From positions 1 to 36,608 of the forward strand of contig JAJEHI010000182.1 of the NCBI GenBank assembly GCA_022823775.1: a DNA stretch of 36,608 bases, in the 5' to 3' direction. Source of the stretch: Defluviicoccus sp. (GTDB lineage: Bacteria; Pseudomonadota; Alphaproteobacteria; MPNO01). This document shows positions 4,892 to 17,656 of the stretch, piece by piece. The position numbers were made by a program, and so were the translations under genes. The notes under the pieces were generated by a model. That model was not told the origin of the DNA. It did no database searches and was given only the letters and a program-made list of their open reading frames with translations. The stretch's first letter is position 1, and each line of letters begins with the position of its first letter.

Positions 4892-5043
4892 GGATGCCTT
4901 CCGCCGTTCGAGGTCGGGCGACACTAGGCCAGGCTCGGAACCCGGTCCAGCGGACGCAATCCCCCGGCGCGAGCCTGTCCAAGACGTACGTTTGCTGGTT
5001 AACTGCGGCGGAAGGCGCCGCCGCGCCGCGCCGGAGACCGACG

Positions 5044-6225
5044 ATGAGCGACAGCCAGAGCCGTTCGTCCGCGATCAAGACCCAGATTCCCGAACTCGGC
5101 CTGACGGAATACTGGTACCCGGCGACTTTCGCGAAAAAAGTCAAACGGCGCCCTGTCGGCGTCCGGATGCTGGGCGAGACGCTGGTGCTGTTCCGCGGCA
5201 GGGACGGCCACGTCGCCGCCGCCTCCAATACCTGCCCGCATCGCGGCGGCTCGCTGATGCACGGCGTCTGCCATTACAAGGGCACCGTCGCCTGCCCCTA
5301 TCACGGATGGGTGTTCGACGAGCGGGGCGAATGCGTCGCGGTCCTTTCCGAAGGCCCCGAGAGCGCGATGCCCGGCAAGGTCAGGCTCCGGATCTATCCG
5401 ACCGCGGAATACAAAGGGCTGGTCTTCGTCTGGATGGGGAACGGCAAGCCGGTCCCGGTCGAGAACGAGATCCCGCCCGAGTTCTTCGAAGGGAGGGAAA
5501 CCGCGCTCTTCATCTCTGCCCGGCGGTGGGACGTGAACTGGAGGGTCGCACTCGAGAACTCGCTCGACTCGCACGTCATGTACGTTCACCGGAACGCGCT
5601 GTTGCAGCTCATGGAGCCCTACCAGCAGTTCGGCCGCACCGGGTATTCCCCGCGCATCGTCAACGGCAGGGCGGCGATCGGCTATCTCAGGGATCCGCCG
5701 CGCACCGGACGCGAATTCTATCCCGGTCTCGACGATTACTGGCCGAAGACCGAGTGGCGCAGGCTGTGGCTCTGGATCTTCGCCTGGCGCAATGCCCGTA
5801 TCCGCAACAGCAGGCCATTCCTCGAAGACAACGAGGAATGGGGTATGCACACCATGGTCGACGGCCGCTACGTGCGCTCGGCCGGGCATCATCTGCCGAG
5901 CATGTTCCGCTTCGATTTCGGCGGGCAGATGTTCACCCGCTTCTGCGTTCCCATCGATGCCGACACCACGCGTGTTTTCTATATCCATGCCGCCCGCCGG
6001 AAGACGCGGCTCGGCCGCGCGCTGCGCGCCGCCTACTATCACCTCTTCCGCAACTGGGCGCTCAACATCAACTTCTCGACTCAGGATTACCGTGTAATGG
6101 CGGCCCAGGACTACGATGCGCCGGAGATGCTGTCGGCCAGCGACGGGCAGCTGGTGCGCTGGCGGCGGCTGTTGTTGACCGCGCGCGGAATGCCCGACCC
6201 GCGCGATCCGCCGGCGGGCGGATAA
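5044..6225 (+). CDS. Rieske non-heme iron aromatic-ring oxygenase, alpha subunit (O-demethylase/hydroxylase type)
   Basis: 393 residues from ATG 5044 (GGAGA seven bases upstream). The Rieske [2Fe-2S] ligands are clear: CPHRGG near residues 63-68 and CPYHGW near 83-88 (C-x-H ... C-x-x-H). The mononuclear iron site is in ENSLDSHVMYVH (about 176-187), giving the D-x-H-x4-H arrangement, with a later acidic ligand expected in the C-terminal part. The C-terminal domain is of the VanA/phthalate-oxygenase/LigX type rather than benzene-dioxygenase type, and no beta subunit follows, so a homomultimeric monooxygenase or O-demethylase is likely. It needs electrons from a ferredoxin/reductase that is not in the window. 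It is followed 22 bases later by the LigB-type dioxygenase gene, suggesting that it produces the catecholic substrate of that enzyme (inference). Confidence 0.88.
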   Translation: MSDSQSRSSAIKTQIPELGLTEYWYPATFAKKVKRRPVGVRMLGETLVLFRGRDGHVAAASNTCPHRGGSLMHGVCHYKGTVACPYHGWVFDERGECVAVLSEGPESAMPGKVRLRIYPTAEYKGLVFVWMGNGKPVPVENEIPPEFFEGRETALFISARRWDVNWRVALENSLDSHVMYVHRNALLQLMEPYQQFGRTGYSPRIVNGRAAIGYLRDPPRTGREFYPGLDDYWPKTEWRRLWLWIFAWRNARIRNSRPFLEDNEEWGMHTMVDGRYVRSAGHHLPSMFRFDFGGQMFTRFCVPIDADTTRVFYIHAARRKTRLGRALRAAYYHLFRNWALNINFSTQDYRVMAAQDYDAPEMLSASDGQLVRWRRLLLTARGMPDPRDPPAGG

Positions 6226-6247
6226 CGGCCCCGGGGGAGGGGGTGAA

Positions 6248-7306
6248 ATGGCGGAAATCCTCGGTCTGGGCATGACCCACTACACAGGGCTCCGTTTCGT
6301 CGACGAGGAGATGAGCATCTTCCTGAGGCGGACGCTCAGGGGAAGCGACGTGCCCGACGAGATGAAGGATCCCGCCAACTGGCCCGACGCGATGCGCGAG
6401 GAATGGGCCGACGACCGGGGCGCCGCTGCGGCGACCGCGCACCGCAGGCGCCACTGGGACGCCTTCACCCGCATGAAGGACGAGCTCGATTCGTTCGCAC
6501 CCGACTTCGTCGTCATGTGGGGCGACGACCAGTACGAGAACTTCGTCGAGGACATCGTGCCGCCGTTCTGCGCCTACATCGCCGACGAGTTCGTCTCGAC
6601 CCCGTACCTCGATCTCCCCGGCCGGCCGGATCCGCCCAACGCCTGGGGCGAGCCCGAAGACACGGAATTCGTTCACAAGGGCCACCCGGAAGGCGGCGCC
6701 TGGCTGGTGGAGAAGCTGAGCGAGCAGGGCATCGACATTCCCTATGCCTACCGCCTGCGGCACGGAAAGGGCCTCGCGCACGCGTTCATCAACACGCTGC
6801 TGTTTATCGACCATGAACGGACCGGTTTTCCCCACCCGCTGGTTCCGTTCCACGTGAACTGCTACGGCGGCGAATTGATCCGCACGCGGGGAGGCCATCT
6901 GGTGCCCGGCGAGGAGGACATCCGCCGCGATCCCCCGGCGCCGTCGGCGCGGGCCTGCTTCGATCTCGGGCGCGGCATCGCCCGGGTGCTCGCGGACTCG
7001 CCCTGGCGGGTCGCGCTGATCGCGTCTTCGAGCTGGTCGCACGCCTTCCTGACCGCCAAGAACCACTGGATCTATCCCGACCACGGGGGCGACCGGAGGC
7101 GGCTCGAAGAGCTGCGCGAGGGCCGGTTCGTGGAATGGCGCGACCTCACCCATGAGGAGATCGAGGACGCCGGGCAGCACGAGTTCCGCAACTGGATCTG
7201 CCTCGCCGGCGCCATGACCGAGCTCGGTGCCGGCGTCGAGATCGTCGATTACATGGAAAGCTGGGTGCTCAACTCCAACAAGTGCTTCGCGGTCATGCGG
7301 CCATGA
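6248..7306 (+). CDS. LigB-type (class III) extradiol ring-cleavage dioxygenase
   Basis: 352 residues from ATG 6248 with GGGGGAGGGGGTGAA directly upstream. The opening MAEILGLGMTHYTGL places His11 where LigB-type enzymes have their first iron ligand. The block FVVMWGDDQYENF (88-99) is the usual 'vvi.gdDq.enf' signature of this superfamily, and His178 in GLAHAF matches the position of the conserved active-site His. The segment VPFHVNCYGGEL (199-210) and the final third around Ser259-His265 also follow the family. These non-heme Fe(II) enzymes open protocatechuate, gallate or catechol-like rings by extradiol cleavage. No small LigA-like subunit gene is adjacent, so it resembles single-chain forms such as LigZ. 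The next gene overlaps its stop codon in an ATGA arrangement, implying translational coupling. Confidence 0.85.
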   Translation: MAEILGLGMTHYTGLRFVDEEMSIFLRRTLRGSDVPDEMKDPANWPDAMREEWADDRGAAAATAHRRRHWDAFTRMKDELDSFAPDFVVMWGDDQYENFVEDIVPPFCAYIADEFVSTPYLDLPGRPDPPNAWGEPEDTEFVHKGHPEGGAWLVEKLSEQGIDIPYAYRLRHGKGLAHAFINTLLFIDHERTGFPHPLVPFHVNCYGGELIRTRGGHLVPGEEDIRRDPPAPSARACFDLGRGIARVLADSPWRVALIASSSWSHAFLTAKNHWIYPDHGGDRRRLEELREGRFVEWRDLTHEEIEDAGQHEFRNWICLAGAMTELGAGVEIVDYMESWVLNSNKCFAVMRP

Positions 7307-8649
7307 CGGGAGACGCCGAGAACCCCGGCCCGCCGGCGCCGCTCTCGTCCGAACAGCAAGCATGGATCGCCCAAGCGAACGAGGCCATCGACCTCGATTT
7401 CATGCTGTCCACGCTGGAGCGCGCGGTCGGGATTCCGAGCCGCACCGGGGAGGAGCGCGCGCTGGGAGAATTCTTCGCCGGGACCATGAACGCGCGCGGG
7501 ATCGACGCGTTCTACCAGCCCATCGACGAGCACCGCGGCAACAGCATCGGGCGGCTCGCCGCCGGCGGCGGCGGCGCGGACCTCCTGTTCTACGGCCATC
7601 TCGACACTACCTTCAGCGCCGATGCGCGGGAGGACGCCCAGATGACCGGCGGGCGCCCCCGGCCCGACCTGGAACCGCGTATGCGGCGGGAGGGCGATCT
7701 GCTTTACGGCCTCGGCGTGCAGAACCCCAAGGGCAGCGTGGTCTGCGCCATCGCCGCGCTAGACGCGGCGGCGCGGGCCGGCGTTCCGCTCAAGGGCGCC
7801 GCCAGCATCGGCATTGCCGCCGGAGGAATTCACAAGGGGCCGGTCGAGGGCTTGATGCATTCCTATCGCGGCCGCCGCTACCAGGGCTTCGGGGTCGGGT
7901 GCGAATACATGCTGACGCACGGGCTGGCCGCCGATTACTGCGTCAGCACCAAGCCCGGTTACGGCATCGTCTGGGAGGAACCGGGCGAGTGCTGGTTCAG
8001 GGTCACGATCACGGGCGAGCTCTGCTACTCGGGCCTCCGCCACATCCAGCCTAACCGCAACCCCATTGTCGATGCCGCCGCGGTCGTTCCCATGATCGAG
8101 GACTGGATCGCCGATTACACCGAACGCCACACCATGGGCCAGATCGCGCCGCAGGGAACCGTCGGCGGAATCGAGGCGGGGTGGCCGTTCAAGCCCGAAT
8201 TCATTCCCGGCGTCTGCGTGCTCTACGTCAACATCCACACCAATTCGGCGACCCGTCCCATCGAGGTCCGGCGCGAGTTCGAGGCGCTGATCGACGACAT
8301 CCGGTCGAAGCGCGAAGGCATCGACATCGGCGTCGAGATGCTGCTCTCGACCCCGGGATCGCGGACCGAGCCCGACAACTGGATCGTGCGTTCGGCCTCG
8401 GCAGCGATCGAGGCGGTGGAGGGGCGGCCCATCGTCGTCAGCGGGCTCAGCGGCACTACCGACGGCGCGATCCTGAGGAATGCGGGCATCGCCACCGCGC
8501 GGATCGGCCTGCCGGGCATGGCCGAACCCGAGCCCGACTGGCCGCCGATGTTCGATGCCTGCCGGATCGGCGATCTCGAACGCCTGACCCGGGTTTACCT
8601 GCACGCCCTGATCGACACCTGCACGCGGGAGCGGGAGGAGATGGGGTGA
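7303..8649 (+). CDS. M20-fold (peptidase M20/M25/M40-like) protein with degenerate metal site
   Basis: 448 residues from ATG 7303, which overlaps the stop of the upstream dioxygenase gene (ATGA). The overall M20 layout is present: LLFYGHLDTTF holds His99 and Asp101 of the first metal motif, GLGVQNPKGSVVCAI follows at 137-150, and SGLSGTTDGAILRNAGI is near the C-terminus. Most other ligands are changed. The bridging Asp of the usual G-x-G-x-x-D-x-K-G is Asn141; the Glu-Glu catalytic pair is replaced by AAGGIHKGPVEG (172-183); the Glu of the usual E-P-T is Lys217 in STKPGY; and the final His motif reads MFDACRIGDL (416-425). A normal dizinc peptidase mechanism therefore looks unlikely. Because it is coupled to a ring-cleavage dioxygenase, it may be a repurposed hydrolase for the ring-opened product or a non-catalytic partner (inference). 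The assignment to the fold is secure, the function is not. Confidence 0.8.
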   Translation: MTGDAENPGPPAPLSSEQQAWIAQANEAIDLDFMLSTLERAVGIPSRTGEERALGEFFAGTMNARGIDAFYQPIDEHRGNSIGRLAAGGGGADLLFYGHLDTTFSADAREDAQMTGGRPRPDLEPRMRREGDLLYGLGVQNPKGSVVCAIAALDAAARAGVPLKGAASIGIAAGGIHKGPVEGLMHSYRGRRYQGFGVGCEYMLTHGLAADYCVSTKPGYGIVWEEPGECWFRVTITGELCYSGLRHIQPNRNPIVDAAAVVPMIEDWIADYTERHTMGQIAPQGTVGGIEAGWPFKPEFIPGVCVLYVNIHTNSATRPIEVRREFEALIDDIRSKREGIDIGVEMLLSTPGSRTEPDNWIVRSASAAIEAVEGRPIVVSGLSGTTDGAILRNAGIATARIGLPGMAEPEPDWPPMFDACRIGDLERLTRVYLHALIDTCTREREEMG

Positions 8650-8657
8650 GGTTGCTT

Positions 8658-8761
8658 GGACGCCCTTCGATACGCCGCTTCGCGGCTACTCAGGGTGAGG
8701 GATTCTTCATCCCATCCTCATCCCGAGTAGGCGCCGCAGGCGCCGTATCGAGGGACGCCCA
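8658..8761. repeat. Long palindromic intergenic repeat, copy 2
   Basis: Same architecture as the element at 1821-1937: left outer arm GGACGCCCTTCGATACG, side hairpin CCGCTTCGCGG, inner arm CTACTCAGGGTGAGG, a short loop, inner arm CCTCATCCCGAGTAG, side hairpin GGCGCCGCAGGCGCC, right outer arm CGTATCGAGGGACGCCC. The right half is nearly identical to copy 1 while the side-hairpin sequences and the loop differ but keep their self-complementarity, so the fold rather than the letters seems conserved. It again separates two convergent genes (M20-like + and modC -). Here the element also supplies the last codons and the stop of modC. Confidence 0.9.
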
Positions 8762-9862
8762 ACCGCCGGTTTCCAGACCGCCGATGTCGCTCCGTGCCAC
8801 CGCTGTCGAGTTGACGATCGCGTAGCACGGCTTGCCGGGGGCAAGGCCCAGCGCGCGCACCGATCTCCTCGTGACGCGGGCGAGCAGCCGGTCGGTGCCT
8901 GACTGAAGCCCGACCGCCGCGCCCGGGCCCTCGCCTTCGTGGATCGCGCTCACGGTCGCGGGAAGGATGTTGAGCGCGCTCAGCCCCGTCGGCTTCTCCG
9001 TCGCGATTATCACGTCCTCGGCGTGGATGCGAAGGCTGAGCGCGGCGCCGATGGCTGCGTCGATATGCGGCAGCTGCAGCCGCCCTCCGCTCACCGACAG
9101 GACGGTGAGCCCGGTCGCCGCGTCATGGCCCAGAATCGTTGCCGACAGCAGCGCGCCGGCTTCGTCGATGCCGATAAACGGAACCGCCTCCGGATCGGAC
9201 AGCACCTCCGCGGCGGGGCCCGAGCGAGCGACGCGTCCCCGGCTCATCGCCACCACCGTGGTCGCGAGATGGACGATTTCCGCGACCGAATGGCTGACAT
9301 AGAGGATCGGTATTCGCGTCTCCGCGCGGAGGCGCTGGAGATAGGGCAGAATCTCTGCCTTGCGCGGCTGATCCAGCGAGGCGAGCGGCTCGTCCATCAA
9401 CAGGATACGAGGCGCGCTCAGGAACGCGCGGCCGATGGCGACGCGCTGCTTCTCGCCGCCAGACAGCCGTCCGGGCCGGCGGTCGAGCAGGTGCCCGATC
9501 CCGAGGATTTCGACGATTTGCCCGATGTCCTCCGTCTCGGCGCCGCGCGGTGCGAACCAGCGGCCGAACGCAAGGTTCTGGCGGACCGTGAGGTGGGGGA
9601 ACAGGCGCCCTTCCTGGAATACGTAGCCGACCCGACGGCGATGCGCCGGAAGCGCGACTCCGCGACCCGTATCGAGCAGGACCGTATCGCCTGCCTCGAC
9701 CCTTCCCTCGTCCGGCCGCAACAGGCCCGCGATCGCTTCGACGACCGTGGTCTTGCCCGCGCCCGAACGCCCGAACAACGCCGTGATGCCGTCGGGCGCG
9801 GAGAATTCCGCGTTGAGCGCGAATCCCTCGAAGCGATGCCGGAGAGAAACGTCCAGGCTCAT
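8690..9862 (-). CDS. modC: Molybdate ABC transporter ATP-binding protein ModC
   Basis: 390 residues from ATG 9862, overlapping the modB stop in an ATGA. The ATPase domain has Walker A GRSGAGKTT at 31-39, signature LSGGEKQRVAIGRA, Walker B ILLMDEPLASLD and a switch His in YVSHS. It is followed by a C-terminal region with two TOBE-like (MOP) halves that sense molybdate, ending in the normal ModC terminus GLAPGKPCYAIVNSTAVA. It energises inner-membrane import of molybdate by ModB from periplasmic ModA. The last roughly 24 residues (from about GGWASLDTAP onward) are encoded by the palindromic repeat at 8658-8761 and are not family sequence. This is the third gene of modABC; molybdate uptake fits the molybdenum hydroxylase at 32.7-36.3 kb. 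Confidence 0.95.
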   Translation of the reverse strand: MSLDVSLRHRFEGFALNAEFSAPDGITALFGRSGAGKTTVVEAIAGLLRPDEGRVEAGDTVLLDTGRGVALPAHRRRVGYVFQEGRLFPHLTVRQNLAFGRWFAPRGAETEDIGQIVEILGIGHLLDRRPGRLSGGEKQRVAIGRAFLSAPRILLMDEPLASLDQPRKAEILPYLQRLRAETRIPILYVSHSVAEIVHLATTVVAMSRGRVARSGPAAEVLSDPEAVPFIGIDEAGALLSATILGHDAATGLTVLSVSGGRLQLPHIDAAIGAALSLRIHAEDVIIATEKPTGLSALNILPATVSAIHEGEGPGAAVGLQSGTDRLLARVTRRSVRALGLAPGKPCYAIVNSTAVARSDIGGLETGGWASLDTAPAAPTRDEDGMKNPSP

Positions 9863-10557
9863 CTCGCGGCCACCCAACGTGCGATTCGCCGGGAGACGAA
9901 CTCCGAGGCCAGGAGAGCCGCCATCGCAACGGCGATCGAGACGACGACGAGCCTGACGGCGGACGATTCCCCGCCCGGCACCTGGAGAAAGGCATAGATC
10001 GCCGAGGGCAGCGTCTGGGTCTCGCCCGGTATGTTCGAGACGAAAGTGATGGTGGCGCCGAACTCGCCCATCGCCTTGGCGAAGGCGAGGATTGCGCCGG
10101 CGACGATGCCCGGCAGGATCAGCGGCAGGGTGACCACGAGGAACGTCCACGTCCGGCTGGCACCGAGCGTGGCGGCGGCTTCCTCGAGACGGGAGTCCAC
10201 CGCCTCCATCGCGAGCCATATCGCCCGCACCATCAGCGGAAATGCCATGATTGCCGCGGCGAGGGCCGCGCCCGTCCAACGGAAGGCGAAGACGATCCCG
10301 AAGCTGTCCATGAGAAACCCGCCTATAGGCCCCTGCCGTCCGAACAGGATCAGGAGCAGATAGCCAGTGGCGACAGGCGGTATGACCAGCGGCAAATGGA
10401 CCAGGAGGTTGAGTATCTGCCGCCCCCAGAACCGCCCCCGCGCCAGCAGCAGCGCCGTCGCGACGCCGAACGGGAGGCTCGCCAGAGTCGCCCAGAACGC
10501 GACCCGGATCGAAAGCCGCACCGCCGTCCATTCCTCCGCTGACAGCCAGTCGATCAT
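9859..10557 (-). CDS. modB: Molybdate ABC transporter permease ModB
   Basis: 232 residues, the usual ModB length, with about five or six membrane helices. The cytoplasmic EAA loop that docks the ATPase is visible as EEAAATLGASRTWTFLVV followed by LPLILPGIVAGAILAFAKAMGEFGAT, which is highly characteristic of ModB/CysT-type permeases. It forms the inner-membrane channel of the molybdate importer. The start ATG at 10557 lies seven bases after the modA stop, and its stop codon overlaps the modC start, so the three genes form one transcript. No other function is likely given modA upstream. Confidence 0.95.
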   Translation of the reverse strand: MIDWLSAEEWTAVRLSIRVAFWATLASLPFGVATALLLARGRFWGRQILNLLVHLPLVIPPVATGYLLLILFGRQGPIGGFLMDSFGIVFAFRWTGAALAAAIMAFPLMVRAIWLAMEAVDSRLEEAAATLGASRTWTFLVVTLPLILPGIVAGAILAFAKAMGEFGATITFVSNIPGETQTLPSAIYAFLQVPGGESSAVRLVVVSIAVAMAALLASEFVSRRIARWVAAR

Positions 10558-10564
10558 CGCTGCC

Positions 10565-11329
10565 TTATTCGACCGCCGTGAAGCCCTGGCGTTCGAAGAG
10601 CGGCCTGGCCGCGGCCGAGAAGAGATGCGCGTAGAACGCCGCCGCCTTTCGGTTCTCCGGCCCGGCGGTCAGCGCAGCCGGATAGGCGATCGGCCGGTGG
10701 CTCGAGGCCGGGAACGCGGCGACGACGCTCACCCTGTCGGACGCCGCCGCGTCGGTCGCATAGACGATACCGAACGGCGCCTCGCCGCGCGCGACGAATG
10801 CGAGCGCCGCCCGAACGTTGTCCGCCTGTACCACCCGTCGGGCGACGCCTTGCCAGACGCCGAGAGACTTCAGCGCCTGACGGCCGTATATGCCCGCCGG
10901 CACGGAGTCGACCAGCGCCATCGCCAATCGCCCGGCTTCGAGACGGCCCGGCAGATCCCCGATCCTCATCGAAGGCAGGTTTCGTCCGTGACCGATCAGC
11001 ACCAGCCGGTTTCCGAGCAGGTCCCGGCGGGACTCGCGCCGGATGGAGCCCTTCCTTTCCAGCACATCCATCCAGTCCCGGTTGGCGGACACGAATATGT
11101 CGGCAGGCGCGCCGCGCAGGATCTGGCGCGCGAGAGTCGACGTCGCCGCGTATGAGACGGTCGGTCTCGTGCCGGTGCTTGCGTGCCACTGACGAGCGAC
11201 CTCGTCGAGCGCGGTCTTGAGGCTCGCGGCGGCGAAGACCAGGACCTTCGGCTCCGCCCGCGCGCTGGGCGGTGCCGCCGCGCATATCGCCACGGCGCAG
11301 ATTGCCGCTATCAGGCAGCGTCTCGACAT
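10565..11329 (-). CDS. modA: Molybdate-binding periplasmic protein ModA
   Basis: 254 residues from ATG 11329 (GGAACGGA upstream). The N-terminus is a Sec signal peptide (MSRRCLIAAICAVAICAAA, predicted cleavage after SARA near residue 25). The mature protein starts with VLVFAAASLKTAL, the oxyanion-binding opening of ModA, and contains the usual GAPADIFVSANRDWMD segment and the IVYATDAAAS segment of the second lobe. It binds molybdate (or tungstate) in the periplasm and delivers it to ModBC. It is first in the modABC operon and divergent from the catechol 2,3-dioxygenase gene. I could not find a convincing ModE-type box in the 168-bp intergenic region, only a weak GGAATA...TATTCC inverted pair (11358-11399). 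Confidence 0.95.
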   Translation of the reverse strand: MSRRCLIAAICAVAICAAAPPSARAEPKVLVFAAASLKTALDEVARQWHASTGTRPTVSYAATSTLARQILRGAPADIFVSANRDWMDVLERKGSIRRESRRDLLGNRLVLIGHGRNLPSMRIGDLPGRLEAGRLAMALVDSVPAGIYGRQALKSLGVWQGVARRVVQADNVRAALAFVARGEAPFGIVYATDAAASDRVSVVAAFPASSHRPIAYPAALTAGPENRKAAAFYAHLFSAAARPLFERQGFTAVE

Positions 11330-11497
11330 TCGTTCCGTTCCCGCCGGATGACGGTCGGGAATATCCTTCCGCCCCGTGGGCTTTGGCAAATGGTATTCCG
11401 GACATGCGGTACGCCTTGACGGTCGCCCCGGGCCGGGCCGAAAGTGTCGGGGCGGAAGAATAAGCAACCGACAAGGGCTCTTCAGCGGGAGAACAAA

Positions 11498-12424
11498 ATG
11501 GCGATCACCGGGGTGATGCGCGCCGGCGCGGTGCAGATCCGGGTCACCGAGATGGGGCCGGCGCTGCGCCACTACAAGGATATTTTGGGCCTGTTGCAGA
11601 CCGCCGAGGGGTCGGACGGACGGGTCTATCTCAAGGCATGGGACGAGCACGACCACCACAGCGTCGTCCTGCGCGAGGCCGAAAGCCCGGGCATGGACCA
11701 TATGGGATTCAAGGTCTCGGACAACGCGGCGCTCGACGACTTCGAACGAAGACTCGAAGACTCCGGCGTCACCGTGACACGCATTCCGGAAGGCCAGGAC
11801 GAAGCGACCGGCGAGCGGCTGCAATTCGTCGTGCCGACCGGCCACACGATCGAGCTCTATGCCGAGATGGAGCAGGTCGGCAACGGCATGTCGCTCGACA
11901 ACCCCGAAGTCTGGCCCGACGATCTGAAGGGGATGAAGCCCACCCGCTTCGACCATTGCCTGCTCTACGGCGACGACCTCGACGGGACGGTGAGGCTGTT
12001 GACCGAGGTGCTCGGCTTCCACATCGCCGAACAGATCGTGACCCCAGACCGGCAGACGATGATCGGCGCGTTCCTGACGGCGGCGACCAAGCCGCACGAC
12101 GTGGCCTTCATCCGATCGCCGGAGAAGGACCGGTTTCACCACGCCTCGTTCTTCATCGAATCCTGGCACGACATCCAGGTCTGCGCCGACCTCATCGCCA
12201 AGCACCGGGTGCCGCTCGATATCGGGCCGACCCGGCACGGGATCACGCGCGGCGGGACGATCTACTTCTTCGACCCGTCGGGCAACCGCAACGAGACATT
12301 CTGCGGCGGCTACATCTTCTATCCCGACCGGCCGGCGCTGACCTGGACCGAGGACGACATCGGCCGGGCGATCTTCTATTACGACCGCAAGCTCAACGAG
12401 AATTTCCTGTCCGTGACGACCTGA
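11498..12424 (+). CDS. xylE: Catechol 2,3-dioxygenase (XylE-type, VOC-fold extradiol dioxygenase)
   Basis: 308 residues from ATG 11498 (GCGGGAGAACAAA upstream), against 307 for Pseudomonas XylE, with recognisable identity along the whole length. The iron ligands fall at His153 (TRFDHCLLYG), His214 (RFHHASFFIE) and Glu266 (NRNETFCGG), the same positions as in XylE give or take one. The stretch DIGPTRHGIT...TIYFFDPSGNRNE is diagnostic. The enzyme opens catechol to 2-hydroxymuconic semialdehyde using Fe(II) and O2. It is the first gene of a tight + strand operon running to 17656 that continues with two hydrolases suited to ring-cleavage products. No XylT-type reactivating ferredoxin is present nearby. 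Substituted catechols are equally possible substrates. Confidence 0.93.
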   Translation: MAITGVMRAGAVQIRVTEMGPALRHYKDILGLLQTAEGSDGRVYLKAWDEHDHHSVVLREAESPGMDHMGFKVSDNAALDDFERRLEDSGVTVTRIPEGQDEATGERLQFVVPTGHTIELYAEMEQVGNGMSLDNPEVWPDDLKGMKPTRFDHCLLYGDDLDGTVRLLTEVLGFHIAEQIVTPDRQTMIGAFLTAATKPHDVAFIRSPEKDRFHHASFFIESWHDIQVCADLIAKHRVPLDIGPTRHGITRGGTIYFFDPSGNRNETFCGGYIFYPDRPALTWTEDDIGRAIFYYDRKLNENFLSVTT

Positions 12425-12501
12425 CCGGTTTGGCCGCCGGGCGCCGTTTGGGTATAGAGGGCCCGCGCGCGCCGGCCGAGCGAGTCAGGGAGTATCGTCC
12501 G

Positions 12502-13416
12502 CTGAGCATTCTCGAAGTCCCGAAGCCCGTCGCCGTCGTCGATCTGACGATGGCCGACGGAGCGAACATCGCGGTGCGCCGTCACGGCAACCCGGACGCC
12601 CGCGTGCGCATCTTCGCGAGCCACGGCAACGGGTTCGCCATCGACGGCTACCTCCCGTTCTGGCAACTCCTCTGCCCGCGTTACGAAGTCGTCGTGTTCG
12701 ACATGCGGAACCATGGCCGGAACCCGCCTTCCGCCGTGCCGAACCATGACTACGACCACATGGCGCGCGACATGGGGGAGATACACACACGGATCTCCGA
12801 ACGCTTCGGCGCCAAACCATCGGTCGGCGCCTTCCACTCGATGTCGGGCCGCGCCGCCATGAAGGACGCGGTCGAGACCGCGTGGCGGTGGGATGCGCTG
12901 GTGCTGTTCGACCCGCCGGACATTCCGCCCGAAGGGCACAAGCTGTTCGACATGATGGTGAGGTTCGAGCACCGGCTCGCCGACTGGGCGAAATCCCGGC
13001 CCTCGCGCTTCGCCGATCCGTCCGGGCAGGAGGCGGAATACGCCAATGGGCGCGCGGCCCGGAAATGGGTGGAGGGAACGCACGGGCTGATGGCCCGGTC
13101 CATCCTGCGCCCCGCCGGAGACGGCTGGGAACTTCGCTATCCCGGCGAGATCGAGGCCGAGACCTATGTCGCCAATATTCCGATGAACCTCTGGCCCAAG
13201 GCGTCGGAATTCGGCGGTCCCGTTCTCCTCGTGGGCGCCGATCCGGACGTCGAGCGGCCCTCGCCCACCGCGACCGCCAACAAGGCGATGGCGGAAGAGG
13301 GCGGCTACGACTATGTCGCGATCCCCGGCACCGGCCACATGCTGCAGCTCGAAGAACCCGAAGCCTGCGTCCGCGCGATGGAGAGCTTCCTCGCGCGGCA
13401 CGGGCTCGCCGCCTGA
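12502..13416 (+). CDS. Alpha/beta-hydrolase fold protein (first of two in the ring-cleavage operon)
   Basis: About 304 residues; the stop is certain but the start is not. I place it at CTG 12502 because AGGGAG lies nine bases upstream and homologous sequence begins about here. TTG 12448 (longer) and ATG 12550 (shorter, no ribosome site) are alternatives. The oxyanion segment ASHGNGFAIDG (39-49), the nucleophile elbow GAFHSMSG with Ser113, an acid in VGADPDVERP and the catalytic His279 in GTGHMLQLEEPE complete the triad. The elbow has Phe and Ser where G-x-S-x-G is usual. Cytoplasmic; a role in hydrolysing a meta-cleavage product or a related ester/lactone is inferred from its place after the catechol dioxygenase gene, 77 bases downstream. 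Confidence 0.8.
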   Translation: MSILEVPKPVAVVDLTMADGANIAVRRHGNPDARVRIFASHGNGFAIDGYLPFWQLLCPRYEVVVFDMRNHGRNPPSAVPNHDYDHMARDMGEIHTRISERFGAKPSVGAFHSMSGRAAMKDAVETAWRWDALVLFDPPDIPPEGHKLFDMMVRFEHRLADWAKSRPSRFADPSGQEAEYANGRAARKWVEGTHGLMARSILRPAGDGWELRYPGEIEAETYVANIPMNLWPKASEFGGPVLLVGADPDVERPSPTATANKAMAEEGGYDYVAIPGTGHMLQLEEPEACVRAMESFLARHGLAA

Positions 13417-13423
13417 GGCCACG

Positions 13424-13828
13424 ATGAGCGCGCCGCCGACCCCGGAGTGGATGGAGCGCTACCGCGAGAGGGTCAACGCCGACCCGGAAATGCAGGTGAT
13501 CGGCGACTGGTTCTCGCTCGACTTCAAGCTCGCTTTCGAGGGCGAGGCCTGGCTGCTCTCCGTGCGCGAGGGGCGGATCGTCCAAATCGTCCAAAACCCG
13601 CGCTTCGACCGGCCGGCACGGTTCACGATCTCCGCGCCGATGCGGGTCTGGACCAGGTTCGTCCGGCCCGACCCGGAACCGCTCTACCACGATTTCTTCG
13701 CCATGCTGATGCGGGTGCCGGAGTTCGAGATCGACGGCGATTCCCTCGCCGCCATGCAGAACGCCCGCGCACTCCACCGCATGATGAACATCCTAAAGAC
13801 GATGGAGCCGCTCGATGGCCGATCTTGA
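13424..13828 (+). CDS. Small SCP2-like (sterol-carrier-type) protein, function unknown
   Basis: 134 residues from ATG 13424, seven bases after the preceding stop. The central part, with a strand-rich block around GEAWLLSVREGRIVQIV and then FTISAPMRVWTRFVR, resembles SCP2-type lipid/hydrophobic-ligand binding domains, and ends in a helical tail. No catalytic motif or signal peptide is visible. Such domains bind acyl chains or other hydrophobic ligands in the cytoplasm. Its 3' end overlaps the following hydrolase gene by 14 bases, so the two are co-translated and may work together, for example by holding a poorly soluble intermediate (inference). The SCP2 relation is a weak-similarity call made by eye. 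Confidence 0.6.
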   Translation: MSAPPTPEWMERYRERVNADPEMQVIGDWFSLDFKLAFEGEAWLLSVREGRIVQIVQNPRFDRPARFTISAPMRVWTRFVRPDPEPLYHDFFAMLMRVPEFEIDGDSLAAMQNARALHRMMNILKTMEPLDGRS

Positions 13829-14651
13829 GCCGGTGGTCGGCCGCTATCTCAACCTCGAGAGCGGCGGGCGCCGCTACAGGATTTATTACGAGGAGGCGGG
13901 GGAGGGCCGGCCGCTGATCTGCCTGCACACCGCGGGCGCCGACGGCCGGCAGTTCCGGCATGTGCTGAACGATCCCGAGATTACCGACCGGTTCCGCGTG
14001 CTCGCCTTCGATCTGCCGTTCCACGGCCGCTCCAACCCGCCCGACAAATGGTGGCTGGAGAGATACCGCCTCACCACGGATGTCTATCTCGGCCTGATCC
14101 GAGATTTCTGGCGAACGCTCGGTGTCGAACGCCCGGTGGTGATGGGCTGTTCGATGGGCGGCGCCATCGTGCTCAAGGTCGCCGCCGACCACCAGGACGA
14201 GATTACCGGGATCGTCGGCCTGGAGAGCACCGCCTTCGCCGAGGGCCGCGACAACGATTTCCTGCACCACCCGGCGATCCACGGCGGCGAGCTTGCCGCT
14301 TGCTATACCTACGGGCTCAACGGCCCGGACTCGCCCGAAGCCGGCTGTCGCGAGAACTGGTGGTACTACAGCCAGTCCGGCCCCGGGGTCTACAAGGGCG
14401 ACGTCTACTATTACTGCGAGGACTGGGATGCGCGCGAGGACATCAAGCGGATCGATACCGACCGTTGCAAAGTCTCGCTGCTGACCGGCGAATACGACTA
14501 CTCGGCGACGCCGGAGATGACGCGCGAAGCGGCGGAGGCGATCCCCGGATGCCGCTTTACCGTGATGAAGGGTATCGGGCATTTCCCGATGGTCGAGAAT
14601 TACGACCTCTTCCGCGGATATCTGTTGGAAGAGCTGGCGTCGATGGCCTGA
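13815..14651 (+). CDS. Alpha/beta hydrolase, meta-cleavage-product-hydrolase-like
   Basis: 278 residues from ATG 13815. The fold markers are CLHTAGADGRQFR (36-48, oxyanion region), the nucleophile elbow GCSMGG with Ser113 (111-116), Asp228 in LLTGEYDYS and His256 in GIGHFPM. Length and layout fit C-C bond hydrolases of ring-fission products (MhpC/BphD/XylF group) but also esterases and haloperoxidase-like proteins. There is no signal peptide, so it is cytoplasmic. The middle lid segment is unusually rich in Tyr/Trp (ENWWYYSQSGPGVYKGDVYYY), which suggests an aromatic-lined pocket. In an operon with a catechol 2,3-dioxygenase, hydrolysis of the ring-opened semialdehyde or ketone is the natural reading; this is inference. 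Confidence 0.85.
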   Translation: MADLEPVVGRYLNLESGGRRYRIYYEEAGEGRPLICLHTAGADGRQFRHVLNDPEITDRFRVLAFDLPFHGRSNPPDKWWLERYRLTTDVYLGLIRDFWRTLGVERPVVMGCSMGGAIVLKVAADHQDEITGIVGLESTAFAEGRDNDFLHHPAIHGGELAACYTYGLNGPDSPEAGCRENWWYYSQSGPGVYKGDVYYYCEDWDAREDIKRIDTDRCKVSLLTGEYDYSATPEMTREAAEAIPGCRFTVMKGIGHFPMVENYDLFRGYLLEELASMA

Positions 14652-14685: not shown

Positions 14686-16338
14686 GTGACGACTTCATAT
14701 CCGGCCTTCGGTCTCCAAAGCCGCAGGGCGCTCTACGCCGGGGTGAGGGTGCTCGCGGACGCGGTGCGCGTAACGCTCGGACCCGCGGGGCGCGCGGTAC
14801 TGATCGAGGAGGACGGCAAGCCGCCGTTCTTCACCCGCGACGGCGCCCGCGTGGGGCAGGCAATGGAGCTTGCCGACAGGTTCGCGGATATGGGGGCGCG
14901 GCTGGTCCGCGGCGTGGCCGCGCGCACCGCCGAGGAGGCGGGGGACGGCCGGACCACCGCTACGGTCGTCGCGGCCGCGCTGATCGAAGAAGGGATCAAG
15001 GCCGTCGCGGCGGGCGCGGATCCGGCCGAGTTGAAGCGCGGCATCGACCGCGGCGTGCTCGCCGTGCTCGATACCCTTTGCCGGTCCGCGCGCCCGGTGG
15101 AACCCGGCGATACGCTCGCGAGGATCGCGACGCTGGCCGCGAACGGCGATACGGAGATCGGGTGGATCGCCGCCGAAGCGGTCGCGGCGACGGGCGCCGA
15201 AGGCGTCGTCGATGTCGAGGACGGCCACGGCCGGGGCGTCGAATACGAGATCGTCACCGGCGTGCGCTTCGACCAGGGCTATGTGTCGCCCTACTTCATG
15301 ACCGATCCGGAGACTCTGCTCTGCACCTATGACGAGCCGTTGATCCTGCTCCATGACGGGAAGCTCGACCGTCACGAACCCCTGCTCGGGCTGCTGGAAG
15401 CCGCGGTTCGGATGCGCCGCCCGCTGGCGATCGTGGCCGAGGCGGTGGAAGGCGAGGCGCTCCAGACGCTGACGACGAACAAGGTCAGGGGCGGCCTCAG
15501 GCTGGTCGCGGCCAGGGCCCCCCATTTCGGCGACCGCCGGCGCGCCGCTCTCGAGGATGCGGCCGTGCTGACCGGCGCCACCGTCATCGCCGATGACAAG
15601 GGGCTTGCCCTGCGGAATGCCGGCCCTGGCCTCCTCGGCGGCGCCCGGCGCACGGTGATCTCCGGCAGCGAGACCCTGTTCGTCGAAGGCGCCGGCGAGC
15701 CGGCGGCGATCGAGAACCGCCGGCACGAGATACGCAACGCGATTGCCGCGGCCAGGACCGACTACGACCGCGAGCTGCTGACCGAGCGTCTCGCGCGGAT
15801 CTCAGGCGGGGTCGCGTCGATCGGGGTCGGCGGCGATTCGGAGGCGGAAATCGCCGCCCGCTCCGAAAGCGCACGCACGGCCGCCCGCGCCGCCCGCGCG
15901 GCGCTTGCCAACGGCGTCGTGGCCGGCGGAGGCGCCGCGCTGCTGCACGCCGCGAGGGTCCTCGACCGCGCGGCCTCCGGCCCCCACGCGCGCCTCGTGT
16001 TGCGGGCGGGACTCGCCGCGCCGCTCCGCCAGATCGCCGACAACGCCGGACATGACGGCAGGGCGATCGCCGCCCGGTTGGCCGAGATGGACGATCCGGA
16101 ACGCGGATTCGACGCGATCGCCGGCGAGATCAGGGACATGAGCGCCGCGGGCATAAGCGATCCGCTCGACGTGATTTCGGCCGCGCTGCGCCACGCCGCT
16201 TCCGTGGCGGGAATGGTCCTCACCGCCGAGGCGGCGCTCGCCAGGCCGCCCGCCCCGCCATCCGGCGAGCCGGAAGGTTTCGGTCCGACCACGCCCGATT
16301 TTCGCGCAGACGAACTCGAGGGGCTGGGCCTTGCCTGA
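14686..16338 (+). CDS. Divergent GroEL/Hsp60 paralogue with altered ATPase residues
   Basis: 550 residues from GTG 14686; the N-terminus aligns with GroEL without gaps (VLADAVRVTLGPAGR matches GroEL 22-36). Equatorial, intermediate and apical domains are all present: RDG with Asp52, EAGDGRTTATV with Asp87, GYVSPYF in the apical domain, PLRQIADNAG near the end. Key changes against E. coli GroEL are Asp398 to Thr398 (codon 15877-15879), Lys51 to Arg, Thr89 to Arg, and Val263/Val264 of the apical substrate groove to Thr/Thr. The C-terminal Gly-Gly-Met tail is missing; the end is GFGPTTPDFRADELEGLGLA. No groES lies nearby. It sits inside a ring-cleavage operon, which recalls the dedicated GroEL-like MimG that helps a diiron monooxygenase fold in actinobacteria. 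A pathway-dedicated chaperone with weak ATPase is my inference. Confidence 0.93.
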   Translation: MTTSYPAFGLQSRRALYAGVRVLADAVRVTLGPAGRAVLIEEDGKPPFFTRDGARVGQAMELADRFADMGARLVRGVAARTAEEAGDGRTTATVVAAALIEEGIKAVAAGADPAELKRGIDRGVLAVLDTLCRSARPVEPGDTLARIATLAANGDTEIGWIAAEAVAATGAEGVVDVEDGHGRGVEYEIVTGVRFDQGYVSPYFMTDPETLLCTYDEPLILLHDGKLDRHEPLLGLLEAAVRMRRPLAIVAEAVEGEALQTLTTNKVRGGLRLVAARAPHFGDRRRAALEDAAVLTGATVIADDKGLALRNAGPGLLGGARRTVISGSETLFVEGAGEPAAIENRRHEIRNAIAAARTDYDRELLTERLARISGGVASIGVGGDSEAEIAARSESARTAARAARAALANGVVAGGGAALLHAARVLDRAASGPHARLVLRAGLAAPLRQIADNAGHDGRAIAARLAEMDDPERGFDAIAGEIRDMSAAGISDPLDVISAALRHAASVAGMVLTAEAALARPPAPPSGEPEGFGPTTPDFRADELEGLGLA

Positions 16339-16389: not shown

Positions 16390-17331
16390 ATGACCAGCGA
16401 TGCCGTAACCAGGAACACCGTCGGTTGGATCGGCGCCGGGCGCATGGGCTTCCCCATGGCCGAGCTGCTGCTCAAGGCGGGGGCCGAGGTGACGGTCTAC
16501 AACCGGACGGCGGCCAAGGCGGAACCACTGACGGCCTATGGCGCCAGCATCGTCGGGAGCCCCGCCGCACTCGCCGAACGGGACGTGGTGTTCGCCATGG
16601 TCGCCGGGCCCGACGATTTGCGCGCGGTGATCGCGGGTCCCGACGGGCTGCTCTCCAATCCCGCCGCGACGCCCCGCATCGTCGTCGACTGCTCCTCGGT
16701 GGACGAGGAAGCTTCCGAGGATGTACGCCGGGCGCTCGCCGAACGGGGCGTCCAGTTCCTCGCCGCGCCGGTCAGCGGCAACGGAAAGGTGGTCAAGGCG
16801 CAAAAGCTCACCATCGTCTCGTCCGGTCCGAGGGACGTGTTCGACGAGGTACGGCCGTTGCTTGAGGTCATGGCGCCCTCCGGCGTGACCTGGGTCGGGG
16901 AAGGCGATCTCGCCCGGACCTGCAAGATCTGCCACAACGTGATGCTCGGCGTGGTGATCCAGTGCCTGTCCGAGATCACCGTTCTCGCCGAACGTGCGGG
17001 CGTGCCGCGCTCGGCCTTCCTCGAATTCATGAACGCATCGGTGATGGGATCGACCTTCACCCGCTACAAGTCGCCGGCCCTGGTCAATCTCGACTACACC
17101 ACCACCTTCACGCCACCGCTGCTGCGCAAGGATCTCGATCTCGGCCTCGCGCTGGGCCGAGCGCTGGACGTGCCGATGCCGGTCACGGCGCTCACACGGG
17201 AGATCCTGTCTTCGGTCGTGGGGAAGGGACATACCGACATCGATTTCTCTATCCTGCTACAGCATGAGGCCGAAGGCGCCGGACACGAGTTGGTGGCGGA
17301 GAACGTCGAGGTCGACGACGGGCTGGGATAA
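16390..17331 (+). CDS. NAD(P)-dependent beta-hydroxyacid dehydrogenase (3-hydroxyisobutyrate dehydrogenase family)
   Basis: 313 residues from ATG 16390, chosen because GGAGGGA lies six bases upstream; GTG 16348 and ATG 16357 are weaker. The N-terminal Rossmann loop is GWIGAGRMGFPMA (12-24), with Asn38-Arg39 after beta-2 favouring NADP. The substrate motif APVSGN is at 126-131 and the catalytic Lys179 is in ARTCKICHNVML, with Asn183 following. The second half is the all-helical dimer domain of the family. The reaction is oxidation of a short beta-hydroxyacid or reduction of a semialdehyde. In this operon it could act on a fragment released from the cleaved ring; related enzymes also reduce succinic semialdehyde or tartronate semialdehyde. 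Substrate not assignable by eye. Confidence 0.87.
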   Translation: MTSDAVTRNTVGWIGAGRMGFPMAELLLKAGAEVTVYNRTAAKAEPLTAYGASIVGSPAALAERDVVFAMVAGPDDLRAVIAGPDGLLSNPAATPRIVVDCSSVDEEASEDVRRALAERGVQFLAAPVSGNGKVVKAQKLTIVSSGPRDVFDEVRPLLEVMAPSGVTWVGEGDLARTCKICHNVMLGVVIQCLSEITVLAERAGVPRSAFLEFMNASVMGSTFTRYKSPALVNLDYTTTFTPPLLRKDLDLGLALGRALDVPMPVTALTREILSSVVGKGHTDIDFSILLQHEAEGAGHELVAENVEVDDGLG

Positions 17332-17362: not shown

Positions 17363-17656
17363 ATGGCGAAGGGCTACTGGGTGAGTTGTTACCGCGCGAT
17401 CAAGGACCCCGACGCGCTCGGGGAGTACGCCAAGCTCGCGGGGCCTGCGATCGCGGCCGGGGGCGGGAAATTTCTCGCCCGCGGCGGTCGGGTGGCGGCC
17501 TTCGAGGCCGGCGTGAACGAACGCACCGTCGTCGTCGAGTTCGAGAGCTTCGAGCAGGCACTGGCGACCCATGACGGGGAAGCCTATCAGGCGGCGCTCG
17601 CGAAGCTCGAAGGAGCCGTCGAGCGGGACCTGCGGGTCGTCGAGGGTATCGACTGA
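17363..17656 (+). CDS. DUF1330 family small protein
   Basis: 97 residues from ATG 17363, which has an excellent AAAGGAGG site. The sequence MAKGYWVSCYRAIKDPDAL, then GGKFLARGG, VVVEFESFEQALA and YQAALAKLEGAVERDL at the end are the standard DUF1330 pattern, a ferredoxin-like alpha/beta barrel of the dimeric ABM type. No characterised activity is common to the family; members often accompany oxidoreductases and aromatic-compound genes. It is the last gene of the operon that starts at the catechol dioxygenase gene, 31 bases after the dehydrogenase stop, and converges with the next gene across 12 bases. Confidence 0.88.
   Translation: MAKGYWVSCYRAIKDPDALGEYAKLAGPAIAAGGGKFLARGGRVAAFEAGVNERTVVVEFESFEQALATHDGEAYQAALAKLEGAVERDLRVVEGID

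Follow-up and report, generated by a model that had tools for sequence, protein, structure and literature searches.

An open reading frame in the wastewater bacterium Defluviicoccus sp. encodes a divergent group I chaperonin in which the catalytic aspartate of GroEL, Asp398, has been replaced, as it has in all four orthologues from the same genus, and which lies within a conserved catabolic operon. We give an even chance to the reading that this chaperonin is dedicated to its own operon, where it would probably bind nucleotide while hardly hydrolysing it, and would act as a holdase or assembly scaffold for one of the operon enzymes. Coordinates refer to the window, the whole 36,608-nucleotide stretch analysed.

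Identity and fold of the divergent chaperonin

The frame at 14686-16338 (plus strand) is open throughout, without an internal stop codon, and its 550-residue product matches Pfam PF00118 (Cpn60_TCP1) with an E value of 2.8e-57. It is 43-49% identical to canonical GroELs, can be numbered without gaps against E. coli GroEL up to approximately residue 425 (the reference being identical to PDB 4pkn_G over residues 1-544), and carries the complete three-domain chaperonin architecture. Its score against TIGR02348, the GroEL equivalog, is 537.1 bits and misses the 582.1 cut-off, while four broader PRK subfamily cut-offs are passed. Its top matches in the PDB are without exception chaperonins of the GroEL/Hsp60 type, the first by sequence being 1iok, 'chaperonin 60'. 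A predicted structure (mean pLDDT 82.6, pTM 0.72) has the GroEL fold throughout; this model confirms the fold only.

Three chaperonin genes are present in the 4.8-Mb genome, with canonical copies on contigs C71 and C110 and the divergent one on the window contig, C164. There are two GroES genes, one immediately preceding the C71 GroEL gene and the other near the end of contig C86. The latter may belong to the C110 GroEL, since both are found at contig ends. The view in the initial annotation that this is not a housekeeping chaperonin is borne out by the presence of two canonical GroELs elsewhere in the genome.

The chaperonin gene lies in a catabolic operon

The gene is the fifth of seven close, co-directional genes:

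11444-12424, plus strand: catechol 2,3-dioxygenase, first gene of the run (TIGR03211, 429 bits, cut-off 320)
12424-13416, plus strand: alpha/beta hydrolase 1 (coordinates are those searched; the gene may begin further in)
13424-13828, plus strand: 134-residue protein with no Pfam or NCBIfam match (ORF from 13313, likely ATG 13424)
13815-14651, plus strand: alpha/beta hydrolase 2, directly upstream of the chaperonin (dN/dS 0.08-0.09, the tightest constraint among four measured neighbours)
14686-16338, plus strand: divergent group I (GroEL-like) chaperonin, 550 residues, GTG start, no adjoining GroES gene
16390-17331, plus strand: dehydrogenase, 3-hydroxyisobutyrate/tartronate-semialdehyde reductase-like (ORF from 16348, likely ATG 16390)
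17363-17656, plus strand: DUF1330 protein (ORF from 17264, likely ATG 17363)

The gap on the 5' side of the chaperonin gene is 34 bases and that on the 3' side 9 to 51, depending on the start codon chosen. We infer that the seven genes form one transcript, and the operon looks as if it serves the breakdown of aromatic compounds. Its full order is common to the orthologous loci L021, L022 and L023. In a further genome (G005), a 3.6-kb contig (L024) holds only hydrolase 1 through the chaperonin, and a second locus (L019) holds the end of the chaperonin and the next two genes.

The 14 loci with the divergent gene contain no GroES-like ORF, and a Pfam scan of 20 window ORFs revealed no di-iron monooxygenase. 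A PF02332 search of the same genome gave no match but, being silent in all 14 controls as well, carries no weight.

Further upstream, at 4894-8649, the window seems to encode another aromatic pathway, with genes for a Rieske oxygenase and a LigB-type extradiol dioxygenase, joined by one for an M20-type deacylase (an NCBIfam match under its cut-off). Three genes on the minus strand at 8690-11333 resemble a molybdate-type ABC transporter as judged by eye, and relatives of these are likewise placed in L021-L023.

Altered residues in the ATP site, apical domain and C-terminal tail

The codons that distinguish the protein from E. coli GroEL are the following:

14836-14838, plus strand: codon 51, Arg, where E. 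coli has Lys; the five orthologues read R/T/S/G/S
14950-14952, plus strand: codon 89, Arg (CGG); Arg in 5/5 orthologues, Thr in all readable non-orthologues
15472-15477, plus strand: codons 263-264, Thr-Thr, where the canonical apical domain has Val-Val; 5/5 orthologues have Thr at 263
15874-15879, plus strand: codons 397-398, Arg-Thr, where E. coli has Glu-Asp; 5/5 orthologues have Arg at 397 and read T/S/A/S/A at 398
16270-16335, plus strand: conserved non-GGM C-terminal tail PEGFGPTTPDFRADELEGLGLA, predicted to be disordered (pLDDT < 50)

The substitutions listed by the initial annotation are all seen in the alignment with E. coli GroEL: Thr at position 398 (gapless alignment, codon ACG at 15877-15879), Arg in place of Lys51 and Thr89 with Asp52 and Asp87 retained, Thr in place of both Val263 and Val264, and the absence of a GGM tail. 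Conservation of Thr398 itself, which it had proposed to examine, did not hold up. In the window, L022, L021, L023 and L024, in that order, position 398 reads T, S, A, S and A; the idea of Thr398 as a conserved gain was rejected, and the signal is the loss of Asp. Homologues with Asp at 398 were looked for within the clade, and none of the five orthologues has it. The residue table holds 41 non-orthologous rows, E. coli included, and D398 and T89 are each found in 40 of the 40 rows readable at that position. The loss of Asp398 in every orthologue is thus not a matter of chance, and the altered hydrolysis site is common to the whole genus-level clade.

Position 51 (R, T, S, G and S, in the same order) is not diagnostic, because ordinary GroELs often have Asn there (15 of 40 readable non-orthologues); we therefore rejected the loss of Lys51 as a mark of a dead ATPase. 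Fixed in all five orthologues are Arg89, Arg397, Thr263 and the new C-terminal tail, and position 264 reads T, T, T, A and A in the order given above.

Much of the remaining site is retained. Gly32-Pro33, Asp52 and Asp87 are found in all five orthologues, together with T90 or S90 and the readable adenosine contacts, and Gly415, Ile493 and Asp495 wherever they can be read. At 21 positions which we take to be the nucleotide contacts of GroEL-ATP structures, the window copy equals the cell's own canonical GroEL in 16 and differs at 51, 89, 150, 398 and 481; the adenosine-side contacts are mostly retained, and the phosphate and catalytic side is altered. In the GroES/client groove, Y199, Y203, F204, L234, L237 and L259 are unchanged.

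The tail, PPSGEPEGFGPTTPDFRADELEGLGLA in the window protein, is 22 residues long and devoid of the GGM repeat. It is nearly identical in the five orthologues, none of which has GGM, with the consensus PEGFGPTTPDF(R/G)ADEL(E/D)(G/D)LGLA, and corresponds to a low-confidence region of the structure model.

Distribution and phylogeny

All five Defluviicoccus (genus-level) genomes searched carry the divergent gene. One genome of another genus in the family yielded GroEL fragments only, at 43-44% identity (the assembly is 79% complete). In a tree of 37 rows, the five orthologues are monophyletic, with 100/100 support, and their stem measures 1.83 changes per column. The clade falls among alphaproteobacterial GroELs, though support for this is weak (82/75), and its sequences are unusual in composition; for these two reasons its exact sister is unsure. 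L028, one of two Nitrospirillum GroEL paralogues (L028:7938-9611 and L044:7938-9611), is weakly placed in that position (83/53). Both paralogues have D398, Asn51 and a short non-GGM tail, and no GroES-like ORF in the stretch.

A search covering 385 genomes of the class, with a threshold of E <= 1e-147 and scoring of no more than three candidates from each genome, gave no further orthologue, its four other matches being GroELs of 47-49% identity with D398. That of the order (27 genomes) added two more GroEL matches at 46-47% identity and no further orthologue, and that of the phylum (398 genomes, E <= 1e-150) returned nothing besides the window's own protein. An exact-peptide contig scan, which reaches close relatives only, detected 28 loci, namely four Defluviicoccus orthologues and 24 loci at 40-47% identity. 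All 23 of the latter that entered the residue table have D398; the remaining one (L047) is a fragment that stops at query residue 291 and was excluded as too short.

The 134-residue protein and hydrolase 2 occur in four other alphaproteobacterial genomes. The stretches read there, some of them cut off by a contig end, contain no chaperonin. Hydrolase 2 thus appears not always to need the divergent chaperonin. A relative of the dehydrogenase (64%) is present in one more genome, again with no chaperonin alongside. In three of the four genomes, which belong to another family, the two proteins are 77-93% identical to those encoded at 13424-14651 of the window, and in the fourth 46-70%. High identity in such distant hosts could reflect either horizontal transfer or strong constraint.

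Proposed mode of action

We propose that an alphaproteobacterial GroEL was duplicated and that the copy had already been changing for a long time when the sampled Defluviicoccus species diverged. In the resulting protein, the adenosine side of the pocket would still hold nucleotide, and the two new arginines, 89 and 397, would hold its phosphates. Hydrolysis would be very slow or absent, leaving the protein devoid of the GroEL/GroES timer. A nucleotide-bound, slow state seems likely because Asp398 is gone from every orthologue and Thr89 has become a fixed Arg.

Mutant work places Val263 and Val264 among the sites required to bind polypeptide and GroES. Polar or small residues at 263, and also at 264, would be likely to weaken the binding of both general unfolded protein and GroES. 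One or a few clients may instead be bound through the re-specified apical groove and the new tail. The client is most likely an operon enzyme, and our guess is either hydrolase 2, encoded just upstream, or the catechol 2,3-dioxygenase. It would be held or assembled, and released by its own folding or oligomerisation rather than by ATP turnover. A dedicated holdase or assembly scaffold is suggested by the combination of polar or small residues at 263-264, loss of Asp398 and Thr89, and operon position.

The E. coli D398A mutant offers a guide to what loss of the aspartate may entail: an excerpt of the work describing it (PMC3813556) gives a residual ATPase activity of approximately 2% and a slowed apical movement, and bound protein was released 4- to 15-fold more slowly by D398A and by a single-ring mutant. 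Against a dedicated chaperonin, positions 51 and 398 are unfixed, as relaxed constraint would also have left them. The frame break in one of the five orthologues and the weaker selection on this gene than on canonical GroEL, both described below, count against it too, as does the occurrence of hydrolase 2 apart from the chaperonin.

More tentatively, the protein may be a bacterial group I pseudo-chaperonin, that is, a GroES-free ring which binds ATP without splitting it, serves as a permanent scaffold or mould for a ring-cleavage enzyme and is kept by selection. If so, it would be a bacterial counterpart of the BBS-type chaperonin-like proteins that lack hydrolysis residues; client holding and the ATP timer, joined in GroEL, would here have come apart, and selection could be said to maintain a GroEL-type ring without a timer. 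It would also provide a natural, operon-encoded system whose client can be guessed from its neighbours and directly tested, and would add a monooxygenase-free setting to the small set of catabolic operons with their own chaperonin.

Selection on the gene and alternative explanations

Over residues 6-523, dN/dS is 0.19-0.22 when the window, L021 and L022 are compared, and it is 0.05-0.18 in the tail. The corresponding values are 0.02-0.07 for canonical GroEL (four of the same genomes) and 0.08-0.20 for four operon neighbours. The divergent gene is under purifying selection that is 3-10 times weaker than that on the canonical copy, its constraint being similar to that of the loosest neighbours and far below that of housekeeping GroEL. 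Variable columns are less frequent in the apical (28/186) than in the equatorial domain (70/239; Fisher p 0.0007). We withdrew apical conservation as a sign of client selection and give it no weight, since canonical GroELs show the same bias: the equatorial/apical divergence ratio is 1.06-3.67 in canonical pairs (n=59, median 1.44) and 1.27-2.25 in the divergent clade.

These values bear on the possibility, which we regard as unlikely, that the gene is a decaying paralogue that lost its chaperonin role after duplication and is drifting, its frame open by chance or through weak selection. Gene decay in relatives had been named by the initial annotation as evidence that would speak against its reading, and it is seen in part. 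The bin129 orthologue (L023, the record behind G002) has its frame broken just after codon 398, at a tandem duplication (L023:9197-9313, 61-nt spacing, copies 82% alike over 56 nt), a break that may be either real or an assembly fault. The other four genomes have no visible frame break, the G005 copy being divided between two contigs. Decay would also fit the variation at residues 51 and 398, a dN/dS that exceeds that of canonical GroEL 3-10 times, and a GC content of 73% in the 1-kb block 15000-15999, as compared to 66-70% in the surrounding blocks. However, dN/dS is still approximately 0.2, R89, R397, T263 and the tail are fixed despite a dS of approximately 0.5, and the operon position has been retained.

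Mixing of subunits with canonical GroEL, which would give hybrid rings that either have fewer working ATP sites or present a changed binding face, seems to us improbable. Mixed rings are formed by the alpha and beta subunits of chloroplast Cpn60, the cell has two canonical GroELs and two GroES genes, and fold and gapless numbering are retained; but identity to the cell's own GroELs is just 45-47%, and the gene belongs to a catabolic operon, apart from groESL.

A cycling chaperonin with a rebuilt site has, in our estimate, marginally poorer prospects still. Asp52 and Asp87 would carry Mg and water, Arg89 would bind phosphate, and a lower ATPase would work with the cell's GroES. In line with this, D52, D87, Thr or Ser at 90 and those adenosine contacts that can be read are retained, as are the groove residues Y199 through L259 named above. 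Both V263 and V264, however, are replaced, at sites for polypeptide and GroES binding, and 398 is Ala in two orthologues, the same change that reduces the E. coli enzyme to the residual activity cited above (PMC3813556, in excerpt). It is very improbable that the protein is a moonlighting or monomeric one using the GroEL fold for a non-folding role, for instance to bind an anion or a small molecule of the pathway: the additional pair of arginines close to the phosphate site, the lack of GroES and the altered apical residues would suit such a role, but the whole three-domain architecture has been kept.

Comparison with known chaperonins

With canonical GroEL/Cpn60 (TIGR02348) the Defluviicoccus protein shares the three-domain group I fold, gapless numbering, Gly32-Pro33, Asp52, Asp87 and Asp495, whereas Asp398, Thr89, Val263, the GGM tail and an adjoining groES are absent from it. 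Its favoured role, that of a dedicated chaperonin, has precedents in monooxygenase operons. Excerpts from the literature describe MmoG as a proposed single-enzyme chaperonin of a catabolic operon (PMC9324122), a catabolic-operon chaperonin serving one enzyme in the smo cluster (PMC11057499), and a mycobacterial monooxygenase chaperonin that likewise serves one enzyme (cited in PMC6849523). These systems (MimG of mycobacteria, the groEL of smoABCD and MmoG of methanotrophs) have in common with ours an extra, groES-less GroEL-like gene in a catabolic operon and an altered tail, but they are encoded together with a di-iron monooxygenase, which is not among the window ORFs scanned with Pfam.

Five plasmid GroELs from catabolic, mostly monooxygenase, clusters all have D398, T89, V263 and V264; for four of them monooxygenase genes are present in the stretch read, and for the fifth (L079) only the shared dehydrogenase neighbours. 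On this comparison, the Defluviicoccus protein is like the monooxygenase-operon chaperonins in setting and unlike them in its ATP site. The fifth locus (L079:6998-8599, plasmid unnamed2 of Mycobacterium dioxanotrophicus) retains the dehydrogenase and groEL section of such a cluster, but the stretch read has no annotated monooxygenase gene.

Chlamydial GroEL2 and GroEL3 are also divergent group I paralogues beside a canonical GroEL, and are reported, in an excerpt of PMC1892554, to differ at the ATP and GroES regions. Their profiles, NF038370 (GroEL2) and NF038369 (GroEL3), gave 176.0 and 188.7 bits with the window protein and did not reach their cut-offs of 600. Vertebrate MKKS, BBS10 and BBS12 retain the ATP-binding Gly-Pro while their hydrolysis residues are changed or lost, according to part of PMC2846930. 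They are the nearest functional parallel for a chaperonin with Gly-Pro and altered hydrolysis residues. They are eukaryotic and of group II, and the likeness is one of pattern, not of membership. Literature searches for D398 GroEL paralogues, dioxygenase-cluster chaperonins and chaperonins lacking the catalytic aspartate showed no bacterial case among the matches listed, which is not proof of absence, and no report linking Defluviicoccus with a chaperonin was found among the papers covered.

A GroEL from a plasmid of Caballeronia sp. SBC2 (L074) is likewise a strongly diverged bacterial paralogue, 42% identical to that of E. coli, but has the opposite pattern, with D398 and T89 intact and M204, A234, Q237, V259, L263 and A264 in the apical domain. 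In this protein (L074:7860-9608) most apical hydrophobic residues have been replaced; its end branch measures 2.05, and its place in the tree is unsure.
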